Assembly: GCA_017465665.1 (NCBI GenBank) | Contig: JAFTVU010000003.1 | Coordinates: 38,171 to 102,170 of the forward strand | Reading direction: 5' to 3' | DNA: 64,000 bases | Origin: Oscillospiraceae bacterium | Lineage (GTDB): Bacteria > Bacillota > Clostridia > Oscillospirales > Ruminococcaceae | Part shown: piece after piece, positions 18,415 to 26,939 of the stretch | How positions within the stretch are numbered: position 1 is the first letter of the stretch | How the letters are laid out: every line of letters starts with the position of its first letter | The notes under the pieces: generated by a model | The model's input: only the letters and a program-made list of their open reading frames with translations | Databases searched by the model: none | What the model was told of the DNA's origin: nothing | Position numbers and translations under genes: made by a program

Positions 18415-20184
18415 ATGGTTTCCGAAAAAGAAAAGCAGAATATCACTGCTAATGATAACGATTCCAAAAGCAGTGTATATAACGCTATGTATAATTTCGG
18501 AGAATATATATTCTCTGTATTCATACATATCATTACAGGGATCAAAAGATCGTTCCTCGCATTCATCGACCGAAACGAGGCCCGCATACAGGCTGTGGCA
18601 AAAGCAGTAGGCGGCTGGTTCAAAAAGCTTGGCGCTTCACTTGCGCGGCCCTTTGTCCGCTGGCAGAAAGCAATGAAGCTCGGCATGACCGTAGTGAACA
18701 GAATAAAGCAGGAAAAAGGCACAGGCGCAGCGGCGCTGGCGGTGATAAGAAATATAGGCAGAGCGCTTTTCGGCAAAAGAGGTCTTGCCTATTCCCTGTT
18801 CAACTATGCGCTGCCTATCGTATGCATGGTGATATTTTTTAATATAGTATCCTATGCCAACAGCATGACATACGCGCTGAAGCTTACGGTGAACGGTGAT
18901 TTCATCGGCTACGTCAATAATGAGACCGTATTCACCGAAGCGGAACGCATAGTTCAGCAGCGTATCAGCTACATGGAAAACAATACGGAGATCGTAACGT
19001 TCACCCCCTCATATCAGCTGGAGATGGCAGGCGTAAACGATTCTCTCACAAAGTATCAGCTTGCGGATAAGCTGCTTGCTTCCATGGGCGCAGAGATCGA
19101 GCACGCATACGGTCTGTATATCGGCAATGCGTTCTACGGTGCTCTGACAGAAAAGGACAAGATAGACGCAACGCTGGACAGCCTGCTGGATGTATACCGC
19201 ACAGGCTCCCCGAATGAAACAGTGGCATTTGAAAGCACGATAACCTACGAGCCAGGTCTTTATCTCTCCGAAAGTATCGTGGATGAGGATGATATCATCA
19301 AAACCATCACCTCCAAAAAGAATGTAGCGACCTATTATACCGCCGTATCGGGAGATTCCCCCATTGCTATAACCGATAAGCTCGGCATGACGATATCAGA
19401 AATGGCAGCGCTTAACCCGGGATTTTCCGAAACAACGATGGTATATATCGGCGATAAGTTCCTGATAACTCAGGAAGAGCCTTATCTTGCCGTTACCGTA
19501 ACAAGAACAGAGATCTACAACGAAAATACACCTTACGAAACCGAATACTATGATGACAGCACGAAATATCAGGGTTCAAGCGTAGTTACTCAGGACGGCG
19601 AATACGGCATTGATCGTGTTACCGCGGATGTTTCCTACATCAACGGCGTTGAGGTACGCAGAAAGGTACTTAACCGCGTTACCGTTGAAGACCCCACACC
19701 TAAGCAGGTTGCGATGGGCACAAAGGCTCCGCCTACCGATGCAGATTACAGCATTCAGGATGTAGAGGTGGGACAGATGTACTGGCCTGTAGGCGGTGCA
19801 AACGGCGGTCTTATCAGTGAGATGCCTTACGGCTACGGCGGATATTACGGACATAAGGGTCTGGATATCTCCGCAAGCTATGGAACTCCCATCTATGCGG
19901 CAGACAGCGGAACAGTCATCCTGTCAAAGTGGTACGGAGATTACGGCAACTGCATAATGATAGAGCACGATAACGGTATAGTTACCCTTTACGGACACGC
20001 AAGCTACCTGCACGTTTATGCGGGGCAGCGTGTAACGCAGGGTCAGCAGATAGCGGATGTGGGCTCTACGGGACGTTCCACAGGTAACCACCTGCACTTT
20101 GAGGTGCGTATAAACGGCGTATGCATGAACCCGATCAATTATCTGCCCGAGCACGAATTTGCTTCATGGTGTGTACGCTATTAA
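18415..20184 (+). CDS. Membrane-anchored LysM-G5-M23 peptidoglycan endopeptidase
   Basis: 589 residues. A basic, helical cytoplasmic region of about 125 residues precedes one membrane helix (about 128-148). Outside follow an alpha/beta region, a LysM domain (about 306-350), a G5 domain (about 353-431) and a C-terminal M23 metallopeptidase (about 455-580). Zinc ligands His480 and Asp484 (GHKGLD) and His559/His561 (NHLHFE) are intact, so it should be active on peptide cross-links. The ATG follows AAAGGAGGA. WalR-like boxes lie on its promoter. The long cytoplasmic head is unusual for this family and could bind an intracellular partner. Confidence 0.88.
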   Translation: MVSEKEKQNITANDNDSKSSVYNAMYNFGEYIFSVFIHIITGIKRSFLAFIDRNEARIQAVAKAVGGWFKKLGASLARPFVRWQKAMKLGMTVVNRIKQEKGTGAAALAVIRNIGRALFGKRGLAYSLFNYALPIVCMVIFFNIVSYANSMTYALKLTVNGDFIGYVNNETVFTEAERIVQQRISYMENNTEIVTFTPSYQLEMAGVNDSLTKYQLADKLLASMGAEIEHAYGLYIGNAFYGALTEKDKIDATLDSLLDVYRTGSPNETVAFESTITYEPGLYLSESIVDEDDIIKTITSKKNVATYYTAVSGDSPIAITDKLGMTISEMAALNPGFSETTMVYIGDKFLITQEEPYLAVTVTRTEIYNENTPYETEYYDDSTKYQGSSVVTQDGEYGIDRVTADVSYINGVEVRRKVLNRVTVEDPTPKQVAMGTKAPPTDADYSIQDVEVGQMYWPVGGANGGLISEMPYGYGGYYGHKGLDISASYGTPIYAADSGTVILSKWYGDYGNCIMIEHDNGIVTLYGHASYLHVYAGQRVTQGQQIADVGSTGRSTGNHLHFEVRINGVCMNPINYLPEHEFASWCVRY

Positions 20185-20222: not shown

Positions 20223-20318
20223 GTATTTCCTGCAACCGCAGATATTTTTCTCCGTCTTTATGTATGAGCTCAAAACTAAGGCAGACAGCTCCCTGAACTG
20301 CCGAAGGGGGAATAGAAT

Positions 20319-20870
20319 ATGACAGATCAAGAGATAGTACGGCTGTATCTTGAACGCAGCGAGAACGCTATATCCGAAACAAAGGCAGCCTATGGCAGAC
20401 TGCTCCGCAGCGTAGCCTACAATATACTTCAAAACGCGCAGGACGCGGAGGAGTGCGAGAACGAGACCTGCCTCAAGGCATGGAACAGCATACCGCCAAA
20501 CAAGCCGCAGAGGCTGTGTGCATACCTGTGCAAGATAGCGCACAGGCTGGCGCTGGACAGGTATGACTACAACACCGCCGCCAAGCGCAGCGGCAGTATA
20601 CCTCTGGATGAGCTGGAGGAGTGCATAGCCTCTGCTTACAGCGCAGAGGACAGGCTGACCGCCACAGCTCTCGGAGAGCTGCTGAACAGCTTTCTCGGCT
20701 CCCGCGATTACGATACGCGCGTTATATTCATGCGCCGTTTCTGGTTCGGAGAGAGCATCTCGGAGATAGCAAAGAACCTACACGCCACCGAAAGCATGGT
20801 GAAATCCCGCATATCCCGCACATTGAAACAGCTGCGGGAATTCCTCAAAAAGGAGGGCTATGATATATGA
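20319..20870 (+). CDS. ECF-type RNA polymerase sigma factor
   Basis: 183 residues. Region 2 includes NILQNAQDAEECENETCLKAWNSIPP; region 4 includes RRFWFGESISEIAKNLHATESMVKSRISRTLKQLREFL. This subtype is common in Ruminococcus and is normally followed by a membrane anti-sigma protein. The stop codon overlaps the start of the next gene (ATGA, 20867-20870), so sigma and partner are translationally coupled. Ribosome site AGGGGGA. No consensus promoter is evident in the short gap after the preceding terminator, which would fit autoregulation. Confidence 0.9.
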   Translation: MTDQEIVRLYLERSENAISETKAAYGRLLRSVAYNILQNAQDAEECENETCLKAWNSIPPNKPQRLCAYLCKIAHRLALDRYDYNTAAKRSGSIPLDELEECIASAYSAEDRLTATALGELLNSFLGSRDYDTRVIFMRRFWFGESISEIAKNLHATESMVKSRISRTLKQLREFLKKEGYDI

Positions 20871-23800
20871 AAAAGACGATAAACAACGCACTGAATGAAA
20901 TAAGCGACAAGTACATCGAAGAAGCATACAATGCAACAGGTCTTCAGCACTCAACTGCAAGGACTATACGCAACATAGCAATTCCTGTTGCCTCTGCCGC
21001 TGCAATAGCAGGTCTGTGCTTGGGCATGAACAAGCTGGGCGTATTCAAAAGCGGCGGCGTTGACCTTCTCCCTGCCGAATCCACAGGCGGCGCAGGCGAC
21101 ACCTCGTCCATTACAGTAAATGATCCGCAGTATGAGTATATCGGATATACACCCAGCCTGCCCGATAATATCCCGCTTGTACTTCAGACCACAGACCACA
21201 TAGAGAGCATAGTATTCGGCTCGCAGTATCCCGAAATGATTTATGCAGACGAAAATTCCGCCATGTTCACGGATGGCATATCTGGTCTTTATATCTTCGA
21301 TTTTGATACCGAGGAGATCACCTTTGCCGCCGATATCTACACCACCTTTGATATGGCGCTTACAGACTACCCCCAGAAGATAGGCACGAACTACGGCGGT
21401 GACAGCTGGAACGGGATCGAGCTTTTCGCAGGAGCAGATGGCACGCCCTACTGCTCGATGGCATATCACAGCGATATCGTACTGACAGGCAGCGGACTGC
21501 CAACACAGAGCCAGTGGCAGACAAAATACTATGAGATAGACACTGAAGCACTGACTCTCACAGCGCTCCCGTCCGATGATATGACCATACCTCTGTACGA
21601 GGGTCTGAAAGAGATCCCTTACAATGAAAATGAGAACTATCGCAATATGTCGCTTAACGCGGCGTATATCGGTGATACGGATGAATTCGTCTATGTCAGA
21701 AATTGCACGACAGACATCGACCTGCTGCCCGGATATAACATGGAATACATCGAGCTGCGCCGCTGGACTGCCGAGGAAGTCACAGGCGAGCCTATGGAGG
21801 GCGGTCATTATCCGTTCAGTGATAACGTCGGCAAGGATGTGAAGCTGTACTCCAATTACTATACAGGGGATTCCGTTGTGGGACACGAATGCCACGGAAT
21901 ATACTTTAACGGTGTGAAATTCACACTGGATATGCACGCCTCAGGCAGAGTGCCCGAGGGCTATTACACCCTTTACGGTGATATTGTTTGTATGACAGAG
22001 GAGACCAACGGCTATCAGTGGCTGTACAGAATAGAAGCCGATACCCTGCAGCCGCTTGAAGCGCTCATCAAGCAGCCCGAAAATATCGATCTTGAACAGA
22101 CCTATCACGGTATGCCTCTCATAAAGCAGACCGATACGCTTGCAGATGACGTTCTTCCGCTTCATTACGAATCGCTTATAAAGCAGATAGAAATGATAAC
22201 TGCGGCTCTCAGCGAAGATCTGAATGATATTGAAGCACGCAAAGCTCATCTTGAGGAAAAGTATGCATATATCCAGGAGCAACTCAGCAGCGATAAACTC
22301 ACGGAAGATGAACGCAATGAATACTACGAAATGGAAGCCGAACTGACAATGGAAATCAGCTATCTGGAAGCAGACCACGAGGATCTCAGGGCACTGCTAA
22401 CGAACTACCAGACAGAGCTTGATGCCATTGAATCACAGATGCAGAAATCAGGCATTTTCTCATACGAAGTACAGGACTTCCTCTCCACCCTTGACCCGAG
22501 AGTTGCTGCTGCAGTAAAGGAATTTATCGAAATCGAGCCGTCTGCGGAGTTCTGGGGCACAAGCAGCGCCACCATCTCCTACGGTATCGTAACGGCAGAG
22601 GCTATCAATATGTTCAACGAACATATCCTCAGCCTTGACGACAGTGCAGCGGAGATCATCCTCTCCGACGATCAGCTTGTATACTCCATGTGCCTGAACA
22701 GCTACTGGCGTGATAACGACACCGCAAACACAGAGGATCACAATAAGGAGCTGGAGCAGCTCAACGACCTTATCACAGATCTGATACTTTCACGTGAGCT
22801 CAGCAATGCGGGCAGCGCGGATATGGAAAATATGCTGTATCCCCTTGACCCGAAGTACAACTACATCACCTCCTATTTCGGCTATGACGCTTTCCGCGGA
22901 GGCAACCACTACGGTATCGATATTGCAGACAAGGGTATCGGCGGTGCGGATATCTACGCAGTGCAGGATGGTCTTGTTATCGCAGCTAACAACGACGGCG
23001 GCTGGAGCAACGGTCTCGGAAACTATGTGGTGATAGGCCACGGCAACGGCTACTGTACACTGTATGCACACTGCTATGAGGTATATGCAGCTGTAGGCGA
23101 TACGGTAAAGCGCGGCGATACTATCGCGACAGTCGGCACAACAGGCTGGTCCACAGGAAACCACCTGCACTTTGAAATACGCAAGGACGGTGTGGCGATC
23201 GATCCGCTGAGCTTCCCCTATGGAGATGTAGCAGTGGTAAAATATGATGCATTTGAAGCTGCACTGAAATATGCTTTTGAGAATGCAGGCGAGCCTGCCA
23301 TCCCTGATTTCATTGCACAGCCGATAGATTGTGAATCCAGCACAGGCGTGTTTGTTTACAGCGATTATTCGGAATACACATCAGATACTCCCAACGCGAA
23401 TGTTTTCGCCGCTGACTCAGGAGAGATAATCTTCGCCAATTATACAGGCGAAGCTGACAAGGTATGTATTGCTATCATGCATGACGGATATGTAACAGTA
23501 TACCGCGGTCTGAGCAGCTACACATACGAAGCAGGCGAGCACGTTCAAATGGGCTGGGTCATCGGCAAGGCTGATGACGAGGGTAAAATGCGCTTTGAAC
23601 TGCGTACTGATGCAGATGTCGTCATGAACACAAAGGGATACTGCGAGAAGATCGACCCTGCCATGAACGATTTCCCTCAGACAGGCAATGCCAAAGCGGC
23701 TTTCTGCGATGAGATACTTTATTCTAACGAGCCCTCCGTGCTGTTTGATTCCAAGATCAAAGCCTATGCCGTTAGCATAAACGGCGTTACAACAGTGCTG

Positions 23801-24568
23801 AAAAACGAAGATGGCTCTGCTGAAAAGTACGGCAATCTTTTCTTCAATGAAAACGAATCGCTGCTGGATGTCGAGTATATCGGCAACGGCTGTCTTGTGA
23901 CCTCACGCACTGCAAATCTTGCAGATGCCTCGTATATACGCAAGGAATACTATCTTGACGGATCGTATATAGATACCATCCTGCGATACAGTGTTGCTGC
24001 TGACGGAACTGAGGAACTCATAGAAACTATCAACGTGGATTATCTCATGACAGACGAGGATATTGCAGCATACGAATACGACCCTGCAACCTGCCGACCT
24101 GAACTTGAGCCTGTCAACAACGCAATCACACAGGCGTTCGCTGATGCAGGCAAGGCAAATATTCCTGCAAAACTCTATGCTCCCATAGACGACAACTTAG
24201 GCTATATAAGCGAATATTTCTATGACGATTACAGATACGGCTTCGGCGGATACTATGGTCACAAAGGCGTAGATATCTCTGCCGAGTACGGAACAGACGT
24301 AAATTCCGCCGCTGACGGTAAGGTGATTTCCGCCGCATGGTACGGCGATTACGGCTATTGTGTTATTATAATGCATGACGGTTACGCTACCGTTTACGGA
24401 CATCTTAGCGATATTTCCGTAAAGGAGGGCGATACCGTTACCGCAGGACAGCTCATAGCGGCAGTCGGCAGTACAGGCAGAGCGACGGGTAACTATCTCC
24501 ACTTTGAACTGAGGACAGCTCCTGATGAGTATATTAATCCCATCGACTATCTTCCCTATACCGAGTAA
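20867..24568 (+). CDS. Anti-sigma-like membrane protein fused to three M23 domains
   Basis: 1233 residues. The head (1-35, with ALNEISDKYIEEA) resembles the sigma-binding ends of anti-sigma proteins encoded after this sigma subtype. One membrane helix (about 36-56) leads to an exported beta-rich region (about 90-420), a long charged coiled coil (about 435-528), and three M23 peptidase-like domains. Domain 1 (about 655-790) keeps His681, Asp685, His766 and His768. Domain 2 (about 815-915) lacks all zinc ligands. Domain 3 (about 1110-1230) keeps His1132 and Asp1136 but has Tyr1210 in place of the first His of HxH, with His1212 retained. Domain 3 is close in sequence to the M23 domain of the 18415 gene (GYYGHKG, WYGDYG, VGSTGR), suggesting duplication. 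A sigma regulator that itself binds or cuts peptidoglycan is inferred. Confidence 0.75.
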   Translation: MKKTINNALNEISDKYIEEAYNATGLQHSTARTIRNIAIPVASAAAIAGLCLGMNKLGVFKSGGVDLLPAESTGGAGDTSSITVNDPQYEYIGYTPSLPDNIPLVLQTTDHIESIVFGSQYPEMIYADENSAMFTDGISGLYIFDFDTEEITFAADIYTTFDMALTDYPQKIGTNYGGDSWNGIELFAGADGTPYCSMAYHSDIVLTGSGLPTQSQWQTKYYEIDTEALTLTALPSDDMTIPLYEGLKEIPYNENENYRNMSLNAAYIGDTDEFVYVRNCTTDIDLLPGYNMEYIELRRWTAEEVTGEPMEGGHYPFSDNVGKDVKLYSNYYTGDSVVGHECHGIYFNGVKFTLDMHASGRVPEGYYTLYGDIVCMTEETNGYQWLYRIEADTLQPLEALIKQPENIDLEQTYHGMPLIKQTDTLADDVLPLHYESLIKQIEMITAALSEDLNDIEARKAHLEEKYAYIQEQLSSDKLTEDERNEYYEMEAELTMEISYLEADHEDLRALLTNYQTELDAIESQMQKSGIFSYEVQDFLSTLDPRVAAAVKEFIEIEPSAEFWGTSSATISYGIVTAEAINMFNEHILSLDDSAAEIILSDDQLVYSMCLNSYWRDNDTANTEDHNKELEQLNDLITDLILSRELSNAGSADMENMLYPLDPKYNYITSYFGYDAFRGGNHYGIDIADKGIGGADIYAVQDGLVIAANNDGGWSNGLGNYVVIGHGNGYCTLYAHCYEVYAAVGDTVKRGDTIATVGTTGWSTGNHLHFEIRKDGVAIDPLSFPYGDVAVVKYDAFEAALKYAFENAGEPAIPDFIAQPIDCESSTGVFVYSDYSEYTSDTPNANVFAADSGEIIFANYTGEADKVCIAIMHDGYVTVYRGLSSYTYEAGEHVQMGWVIGKADDEGKMRFELRTDADVVMNTKGYCEKIDPAMNDFPQTGNAKAAFCDEILYSNEPSVLFDSKIKAYAVSINGVTTVLKNEDGSAEKYGNLFFNENESLLDVEYIGNGCLVTSRTANLADASYIRKEYYLDGSYIDTILRYSVAADGTEELIETINVDYLMTDEDIAAYEYDPATCRPELEPVNNAITQAFADAGKANIPAKLYAPIDDNLGYISEYFYDDYRYGFGGYYGHKGVDISAEYGTDVNSAADGKVISAAWYGDYGYCVIIMHDGYATVYGHLSDISVKEGDTVTAGQLIAAVGSTGRATGNYLHFELRTAPDEYINPIDYLPYTE

Positions 24569-25094: not shown

Positions 25095-25547
25095 ATGAAT
25101 ATTTCAAATCAGGAGTACGGCGAGCTTACCAAAAAACGCTCTCCTAACTCAAAACTGTATAAGACTCTGCCGAAAGCCTTTATCATCGGCGGGATCATCT
25201 GTACCCTCGGCGAGGGGCTGCTTAATCTGTATACCTATCTCGGTCTGGATGAAACTCAGGCAGGCGCGATAACCTCTATGACCCTTATATTCCTCAGCGC
25301 ACTGCTGACAGGTCTTGAGCTGTATGACCGCATAGCCCAGCACGGCGGCGCAGGAACGCTGGTGCCGATAACAGGCTTTGCGAATGCTGTGGTCTCCCCT
25401 GCAATAGATTTCAAGAGCGAGGGCTATGTGCTGGGACTTGGAGCAAAGATGTTCGTGATAGCAGGTCCTGTCATCGTGTACGGACTTACCGCCTCGGTGA
25501 TATATGGACTGATATATTACATCATCGGTCTTTTCACAGGAGGTTAA
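25095..25547 (+). CDS. spoVAC: Stage V sporulation protein AC
   Basis: 150 residues with four membrane helices. The family stretches KAFIIGGIICTLGEGL and GGAGTLVPITGFANAVVSPAIDFKSEGYVLGLGAKMF are present. SpoVAC sits in the inner membrane of the developing spore and takes part in dipicolinate uptake and release; the B. subtilis protein can act as a mechanosensitive channel. The ATG follows AAAGGAG. spoVAD begins one nucleotide after the stop codon. Confidence 0.95.
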   Translation: MNISNQEYGELTKKRSPNSKLYKTLPKAFIIGGIICTLGEGLLNLYTYLGLDETQAGAITSMTLIFLSALLTGLELYDRIAQHGGAGTLVPITGFANAVVSPAIDFKSEGYVLGLGAKMFVIAGPVIVYGLTASVIYGLIYYIIGLFTGG

Positions 25548-25548
25548 A

Positions 25549-26553
25549 ATGGGATATTGCTCAGGAAAAACATTCAGATACGATAAGGCTTCCATCGAGG
25601 TGTATGCGGCGGTGGTGGGAAAGATCGAAAGTGAAGGACCATACGGCAACGAATTTGATGAAGTTATAGACGACAACAAGGGCGGCACAGACACATGGGA
25701 GCAGGCAGAGGGTCTGTTCCAGAAGAAAGCCGTAAAGCATGTGCTGGATAAATCAGGGCTTGCTCCTGAAAACATCGATCTGTTGTTCGCAGGTGACCTG
25801 CTCAATCAATGCGTCGGCTCATCCTATGGGCTAAAGGATTATTATATCCCGTTCCTCGGTATCTATGGCGCCTGTTCCACCTTTGCCGAGGGTCTGCTGC
25901 TGGCAGGAGCAATGGTCAATGCAGGCTACGCAGATACCGCCATAGCAGTCACCTCCTCACATTTCAGCTCTGCGGAGCGGCAGTTCAGATTTCCGCTGAA
26001 CTACGGCGGCATACGCACTCCAACATCCCAGTGGACAGCCACTGCTTCAGGCGCGGCACTGGTCACGCAGAGCGGAAAGCCGCCGTTCATAAGAGCTGCC
26101 ACCGCAGGCAAGATAGAGGATATGGGGATAACCGATGTCAACAATATGGGTGCAGCCATGGCAGGTGCAGCATATGATACTCTGTCCAGACATTTCACGC
26201 ACCTGGGCAGCCGCCCTGAAGACTACGATCTCATAATCACAGGAGATCTGGGGCTTGTTGGCAGCGAGCTTCTGTGCGATCTGTTCATGCGGGACGGAAT
26301 TGCGATAAAGGAGCGGCACAAGGACTGCGGACTCATGCTGTTCGACCGTTCAACTCAGGATGTACACGCAGGCGGCTCGGGCTGCGGCTGCGGCGCATCC
26401 ATGATGTGTGGGCACTTCCTCAAACGCATAGAACGCGGCGAGCTGAAACGAGTTCTGTTCTGTGCTACAGGCGCACTGATGTCTACCACTATGATACAGC
26501 AGGGCGGCTCTATACCGGGAGTAGCTCATGCTGTTGAGATAACATCGTACTAG
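25549..26553 (+). CDS. spoVAD: Stage V sporulation protein AD
   Basis: 334 residues with a thiolase-like fold. Typical stretches are the LLFAGDLLNQCVGSSYG region, IYGACSTFAEGLLLAG with the Cys at the position of a thiolase active site, and GGSGCGCGASMMCGHF. SpoVAD binds dipicolinic acid during its import into the spore. It is between spoVAC and spoVAE with AGGAGG as ribosome site. Confidence 0.96.
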   Translation: MGYCSGKTFRYDKASIEVYAAVVGKIESEGPYGNEFDEVIDDNKGGTDTWEQAEGLFQKKAVKHVLDKSGLAPENIDLLFAGDLLNQCVGSSYGLKDYYIPFLGIYGACSTFAEGLLLAGAMVNAGYADTAIAVTSSHFSSAERQFRFPLNYGGIRTPTSQWTATASGAALVTQSGKPPFIRAATAGKIEDMGITDVNNMGAAMAGAAYDTLSRHFTHLGSRPEDYDLIITGDLGLVGSELLCDLFMRDGIAIKERHKDCGLMLFDRSTQDVHAGGSGCGCGASMMCGHFLKRIERGELKRVLFCATGALMSTTMIQQGGSIPGVAHAVEITSY

Positions 26554-26561
26554 GAGGATAT

Positions 26562-26939
26562 ATGGATATTTTTCTGGAATATGTCAAGGCGTTTGTGGTG
26601 GGAGGACTGCTCTGCGCCATAGGCCAGTTGCTGATAGATCTGACTAAGCTTACTCCTGCAAGGATACTGGTATCCTATGTGGTGGCAGGCGTTATCCTCG
26701 GCGGCGTGGGAATTTACCAGCCGCTCATAGATTTCGCAGGTGGCGGCGCTACAGTGCCACTGACCGGCTTCGGAGCACTGCTTGCCAAGGGCGTAAGAGA
26801 AGCCGTGGATAAGGACGGTATTCTGGGAGCATTCACAGGCGGACTTACCTCAGGTGCAGCGGGAATAACCGCAGCCGTGTTCTTCGGACTGCTTGCAGGG
26901 CTATGCTTCAAGAGTGGCAGCAAAATAAACGAAAAATAG
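26562..26939 (+). CDS. spoVAE: Stage V sporulation protein AE (AEb type)
   Basis: 125 residues with three to four membrane helices; GGLLCAIGQLLIDLTKLTPARILVSYVVAG and GGGATVPLTGFGALLAKGVREAV are family hallmarks. It completes the minimal three-gene spoVA set of Clostridia. No spoVAF, spoVAA or spoVAB follows, and a terminator comes 4 nt after the stop. Confidence 0.95.
   Translation: MDIFLEYVKAFVVGGLLCAIGQLLIDLTKLTPARILVSYVVAGVILGGVGIYQPLIDFAGGGATVPLTGFGALLAKGVREAVDKDGILGAFTGGLTSGAAGITAAVFFGLLAGLCFKSGSKINEK

Follow-up and report, generated by a model that had tools for sequence, protein, structure and literature searches.

A putative ECF sigma factor and membrane anti-sigma factor pair with peptidase M23 modules as candidate sensor of the cell wall

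Why does a sigma factor gene overlap the gene of a membrane protein with three cell wall hydrolase domains? This question is raised by two genes in a window of 64,000 nucleotides, which is the whole stretch of DNA analysed (assembly GCA_017465665.1, contig JAFTVU010000003.1; the host assembly has 2.87 Mb on 155 contigs). The first gene encodes a sigma factor of the extracytoplasmic function (ECF) type, the second a putative anti-sigma factor. The reading that we favour, at somewhat better than even confidence, is an autoregulated pair of an ECF sigma factor and a membrane anti-sigma factor that senses the wall with hydrolase-derived, mostly binding-only modules. Compared genomes and fetched loci have G- and L-labels, and G000 is the window's own genome. 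The pair and the parts of the partner protein are:

20319..20870, forward strand: ECF sigma factor gene, 183 amino acids (aa); Pfam Sigma70_r2 and Sigma70_r4_2 above cut-off
20867..24568, forward strand: membrane sensor and putative anti-sigma factor, 1233 aa; ATGA overlap with the sigma gene; orthologous pairs in the genus
20867..20947, forward strand: cytoplasmic head, residues 1-27, with a putative sigma-binding helix; loose head motif, modelled helix 2-22
20948..21034, forward strand: single membrane helix with an Ala-Ala run, model residues 28-56; hydropathy, Ala-Ala in 40 of 43 partners
21155..21784, forward strand: outer middle domain, beta-rich, residues 97-306; similar stretches also in three M56/BlaR1-like proteins and in the partner of one other ECF sigma factor, from four other genera
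22136..22447, forward strand: coiled-coil hairpin, residues 424-527; AlphaFold2 helices 424-473 and 480-527
22877..23206, forward strand: M23 domain 1, residues 671-780; all five site residues (HDHHH); groups with the free-standing coiled-coil M23 family
23387..23629, forward strand: degenerate M23 domain 2, residues 841-921; M23 profile match without site residues
24236..24544, forward strand: M23 domain 3, residues 1124-1226; HDHYH, with Tyr1210 in the first HxH position; residues 1103-1231 58% identical to the neighbouring M23 gene

The sigma factor belongs to the ECF group by its regions 2 and 4 and its length of 183 aa (about 180 aa being typical of the group). TIGR02937 (sigma70-ECF) was above cut-off among the best 25 of 67 NCBIfam matches listed. 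The stop of the sigma gene and the start of the partner gene share the four bases ATGA (open reading frames (ORFs) 20319-20870 and 20867-24568). A first-pass annotation of the DNA had described an overlapping ECF sigma factor and a 1233-aa partner with one membrane helix, three M23 domains and a coiled coil. ORFs, Pfam, hydropathy and the structural model bore this out, and His681, Asp685, His766, His768 and Tyr1210 were each exactly at the position given there.

Pfam recognised three Peptidase_M23 stretches in the partner, with 230 bits in sum. The H, D and HxH site residues presumably have the roles known from LytM. Only domain 1 has the complete H, D and HxH set of an M23 peptidase. Domain 3 has lost just one residue of the set, the first His of HxH; His1132, Asp1136 and the second His are still there. 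Domain 2 has none of these residues. The single membrane helix spans residues 34-52 by hydropathy and 28-56 in an AlphaFold2 model of residues 1-650, which is of low confidence (mean predicted local distance difference test score (pLDDT) of 53, about 35 over the head). The model comprises a helix 2-22, the membrane helix, a beta-rich middle and the coiled-coil hairpin 424-527.

Is the combination of both genes conserved? An orthologous sigma factor (E<=1e-80) was present in 11 of 43 genus genomes, and the same kind of partner was encoded next to each. Nine orthologues had 60-78% identity. The coupling of partner and sigma factor proposed in the first-pass annotation is upheld by this co-conservation. 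The G026 partner begins 310 bases 3' of the sigma gene, without overlap. Complete partners were available in 8 of the 11 genomes, and 7 of these have one to three M23 domains, a number that differs among orthologous partners. The partners of G006, G009 and G014 are cut by contig ends; M23-bearing pieces on other contigs are linked to them by homology only. A search of 297 family genomes with the sigma profile (E<=1e-62) matched only the window genome and, more weakly, G057 from another genus. No M23 domain was seen in the G057 partner, which is cut at 498 aa. A scan with two short peptide patterns, which can miss relatives, yielded 14 loci. Nine had at least 60% identity and were the genus genomes already compared; no M23 domain was called in the other five (41-47% identity). 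The metagenome-assembled genomes of two relatives come from deer gut.

Does the partner cut the wall or sense it? Five site positions were scored: His681, Asp685, His735, His766 and His768. All five are kept in 4 of 14 domains of orthologous partners on the contig of the sigma gene, vs 49 of 52 free-standing domains (Fisher p 1e-6). The four-position rule (H, D and HxH) gave 5 of 14 vs 51 of 52 (p 5e-7); both p-values overstate the significance, as the counted sequences are related and were treated as independent. Including the detached pieces on other contigs, five positions are kept in 7 and four in 8 of 20 sensor domains. Among the fetched loci, 52 distinct M23 domains are free-standing: 49 HDHHH, two HDGHH and one YDHHH. 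For this count, the M23+G5+LysM gene of the window was taken as free-standing, L110 and L054 as regulators, and two cut copies of one gene were omitted; local alignment edges may account for some of the gaps at site positions. In five sensor domains, of which one lies on a detached contig, the first His of HxH is the only change (to Tyr, Gln, Arg, Ala and Ile). One G021 domain has its sole change at the His735 position, to Ser. M23-bearing partners of other sigma factors are also degenerate (L107 in G013, L055 in G004 and L054 in G016). The L107 and L054 partners had no match in 247 family genomes at E<=1e-25, which shows little because their home genomes are evidently outside this sample. The repeated loss of site residues in the partners points to sensing rather than cutting, the role envisaged in the first-pass annotation.

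The full site set of domain 1 would also suit a membrane-anchored wall hydrolase that is made on demand, with its supply set by its own sigma factor and with the degenerate domains as aids in binding. One domain with all five residues is kept in four of the seven on-contig M23 sensors, and the operon carries its own promoter motif, both in line with such a hydrolase. However, no domain in the partners of G019, G021 and G024 retains all five residues, and the G007 partner has no M23 match; still, the sigma factor, the head and the promoter motif are kept. Catalysis is therefore not the conserved part, and a self-supplied hydrolase is rather unlikely.

To trace the origin of the outer modules, 45 M23 domains were placed in one tree. 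Eight of the sensor domains cluster with the free-standing coiled-coil M23 family (support 93/98, and 97/94 for seven of them). The C-terminal sensor domains are placed near the M23+G5+LysM family with weak support. Within the window genome, 54% identity to the coiled-coil hydrolase extends from about residue 618 of the sensor as far as the end of domain 1, and residues 1103-1231 share 58% identity with the M23 region of the neighbouring gene 18415-20184. Both M23 types of the cell are thus mirrored in the outer part; the likeness to the coiled-coil hydrolase is clear, that to the M23+G5+LysM type less certain. An ATP-binding ORF is located directly downstream of the coiled-coil hydrolase. No FtsE/FtsX pair was recognised by eye among ORFs of at least 150 aa in the surrounding 10 kb.

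The middle domain (residues 97-306) has matches in 4 of 347 family genomes besides that of the window, in four other genera and at 30-32% identity. Three are M56/BlaR1-like proteins with 168-183 bits to Peptidase_M56 (L197, L199 and L200 from G230, G368 and G239), and the domain forms their outer part. The remaining match is a partner protein of a different ECF sigma factor, and their genes again overlap by 4 bases. An M56/BlaR1-type protein of G017 (L110:3317-5194, G017:C15, reverse strand) has a degenerate M23 domain at its end and overlaps a short upstream ORF that is BlaI-like by eye. Two transmission systems that are unrelated thus have two outer modules in common, M23 and the middle domain, as would suit a role in sensing.

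Sensing may concern another protein instead of the wall, for example an M23 enzyme, foreign or the cell's own, or an inhibitor of it. RsiV, an ECF anti-sigma factor that senses a wall enzyme by binding lysozyme (excerpts of PMC5014341), is a precedent, and the resemblance of the coiled-coil end and domain 1 of the sensor to the free-standing hydrolase makes a pairing of both conceivable. No partner of this kind was identified, however, and several M23 domains keep zinc-type residues, which fits the binding of a peptide substrate. Protein sensing is considered unlikely.

Is the partner an anti-sigma factor at all? Paralogous sigma factors are common in the genus: at E<=1e-20, the sigma profile matched as many as 31 times in one genome, G017, the highest count among the 43 genus genomes. 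The fetched loci contained 43 distinct partners of sigma factors above 100 bits, ten of them cut by the end of the locus. An overlap of exactly four bases with the sigma gene was found for 41 and the loose head motif for 42 of the 43. Ala-Ala is located inside the membrane helix of 40, a count given without a control for Ala-rich helices in general. The sigma-binding-like head noted in the first-pass annotation is thus part of a widespread set of sigma-partner heads and not a chance resemblance. A Pfam scan of 20 sigma partners gave five with M23 above cut-off, one serpin and 14 with nothing above cut-off. A shared head and helix with a variable outer part is the pattern expected of an anti-sigma sensor family. 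That the partner is instead a surface protein co-expressed with the sigma factor, or an activator of it, is very unlikely: the head is short and without known family, but head and helix recur in 43 sigma partners with differing outer parts.

About 27-36 residues precede the membrane helix (hydropathy and low-confidence model). This is shorter than the class I anti-sigma domain, for which at least 50 residues are demanded (excerpts of PMC7406223). Head length and the predicted helix 2-22 (pLDDT about 35) are compatible with class II, the short anti-sigma factors. A short, class II-like sigma inhibitor is our guess. The partner of another ECF sigma factor in the window genome (L106:4797-7385, G000:C34, reverse strand) has a serpin domain (E 3e-53, profile positions 5-368 of 370), possibly a protease-inhibitor fold that serves as sensor. 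Two more ECF partners of G000 (L102:2838-6851 and L105:2731-6651) are longer than 1300 aa and have no Pfam match above cut-off.

Which genes does the sigma factor serve? A candidate promoter is located before its own gene:

20231..20256, forward strand: ECF-type promoter motif TGCAAC-N15-CCGTC, 5' of the sigma gene; same motif and spacing in 11 of 11 genomes

Nine of the 11 orthologues match TGYRAC-N15-CCGTC exactly, G006 and G021 with one mismatch. The conserved motif before the sigma gene suggests autoregulation. A weight matrix was built from ten sigma sites alone. In G005, G019 and G021 it gave high-scoring sites 5' of the coiled-coil M23 gene, the one in G005 being weaker. These are three of nine sigma-bearing genomes vs none of 20 distinct upstream regions in genomes without this sigma factor (p 0.02), and even the weakest of these hydrolase sites outscored all 4500 simulated upstream regions. 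An extended motif with up to two mismatches had ten sites in the 11 whole genomes: eight before the sigma gene and two before the coiled-coil M23 gene, in G019 without and in G021 with two mismatches. At three mismatches, the 14 sites were the sigma promoter of G021 and 13 without visible pattern. The coiled-coil M23 gene is a better candidate target than the neighbour of the pair in three of the nine genomes examined. The window genome has no motif before its coiled-coil M23 gene, so the operon itself is the sole supported target there.

For the favoured pair, we infer sigma binding, ligand, proteolysis, promoter activity and the direction of the response in the following way. The short cytoplasmic head would tether the sigma factor to the membrane, and the outer part, with middle domain, coiled coil and M23 domains, may grip peptidoglycan or the work sites of the cell's M23 enzymes. 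After a change of the bound state, the partner would undergo a first cleavage on the outer side and a second, by an M50 site-2 protease, inside the membrane. Degradation of the remnant would free the sigma factor, which could transcribe its own operon and in some relatives also the coiled-coil M23 hydrolase resembling the sensor. Retired hydrolases may serve as feelers for the state of the wall. An M50 protease is present in the genome (200.8 bits). By analogy, the Ala-Ala run in the partner helix fits the intramembrane cleavage of the RsgI pathway, in which a fragment is freed by RseP and recognised by ClpXP through XAA sites (excerpts of PMC12203970).

Several points weigh against the favoured reading. 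In both genome searches, site totals did not exceed those of the reversed-pattern control, and placement alone is informative. The hydrolase sites were already known when the extended pattern was drawn up, and the sigma promoters of G020 and G024 escape it. In six of the nine sigma-bearing genomes examined, that of the window included, the motif does not precede the coiled-coil M23 gene. The G007 partner is complete, yet it has no M23 match and no Pfam match at all. The head of the window partner has no Pfam family match up to E 1 and was modelled at low confidence. Domain 1 of the window partner may still cut, and the kinship of the counted sequences makes the p-values look stronger than they are.

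A more tentative proposal goes further. The anti-sigma factor could be a decoy whose modules are akin to the two M23 hydrolase types of the cell; it would share the wall sites with these enzymes, read free substrate and set the production of the copied hydrolase, and retired M23 domains would be a general sensor module of ECF and BlaR1-type systems.

Enzyme-derived sensors on anti-sigma factors are known. RsgI anti-sigma factors of Clostridium thermocellum bear GH10, carbohydrate-binding and protease-like, cellulose-binding sensor domains (excerpts of PMC12203970). The principle is therefore already described, and the fusion of a regulator to hydrolase modules is not the undescribed class that the first-pass annotation had assumed. 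SigI/RsgI, as far as these excerpts go, also combines a sigma factor with a one-helix anti-sigma factor, interchangeable outer sensors and Ala-Ala in the helix region. The modular, enzyme-derived outer sensor is present in the window partner, with three M23 domains and a variable number in its orthologues. In contrast, the window sigma factor is of ECF type, the head is without Pfam family and M23 domains of wall-hydrolase type serve as the putative sensors. Besides the operon itself, a wall hydrolase is the one candidate target seen among the compared genomes, not cellulosome genes.

SigV/RsiV is likewise an ECF pair with a membrane anti-sigma factor that reads an attack on the wall. Unlike the window partner, RsiV binds lysozyme itself, and no M23 domain is mentioned for it in the excerpts of PMC5014341. 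Sensors of the BlaR1/MecR1 type with an M56 domain have relatives with the same outer modules (M23 in L110, the middle domain in L197, L199 and L200). Their M56 domain has no counterpart in the window protein, which showed no M56 match in Pfam up to E 1 and is no member of this family. BlaR1/MecR1-type sensors signal through a BlaI-type repressor. EnvC, NlpD and ActS use the M23 fold to regulate wall enzymes, in part without catalysis, a regulatory use such as is proposed for the window partner. We know of no coupling of these LytM-domain factors to a sigma factor. Their profiles match the M23 domains of the window below their cut-offs.

No M23-bearing anti-sigma factor was found among the listed matches in open-access titles and abstracts, which is limited evidence as most subscription journals are outside this coverage. 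M23 as a sensor module of an anti-sigma factor and a feedback on the copied hydrolase look new. How Gram-positive bacteria gauge the turnover of their wall and match the supply of hydrolases is only partly understood. A directly testable loop emerges from a hydrolase-related sensor, the conserved motif of the promoter and the hydrolase that is a candidate target in some genomes. Because outer modules are common to ECF anti-sigma-like proteins and BlaR1-type sensors, uncharacterised members may be readable by their modules.

The gene upstream of the pair encodes another M23 protein:

18415..20184, forward strand: M23+G5+LysM gene (Pfam), probably transcribed as a unit of its own; followed by a hairpin and a T run from 20192

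The first-pass annotation had recognised it as an M23 gene with a related domain, in agreement with the Pfam domains and the 58% identity to residues 1103-1231. Its suggestion that the pair controls this gene is weak. This type of neighbour precedes the sigma gene in only two of ten orthologues with at least 1.7 kb of upstream sequence (G000 and G009); G005 has a different M23 gene of 237 aa about 1.4 kb upstream. The hairpin and T run from 20192 resemble a terminator between neighbour and sigma gene. The neighbour was not among the complete M23 genes of the fetched loci scoring above 12 upstream for the promoter motif. Control of the neighbour by the sigma factor was rejected on these three grounds. 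On the other side of the pair, three ORFs 3' of the sensor (window positions 25095-26939) resemble a SpoVAC-SpoVAD-SpoVAE-like set by eye.

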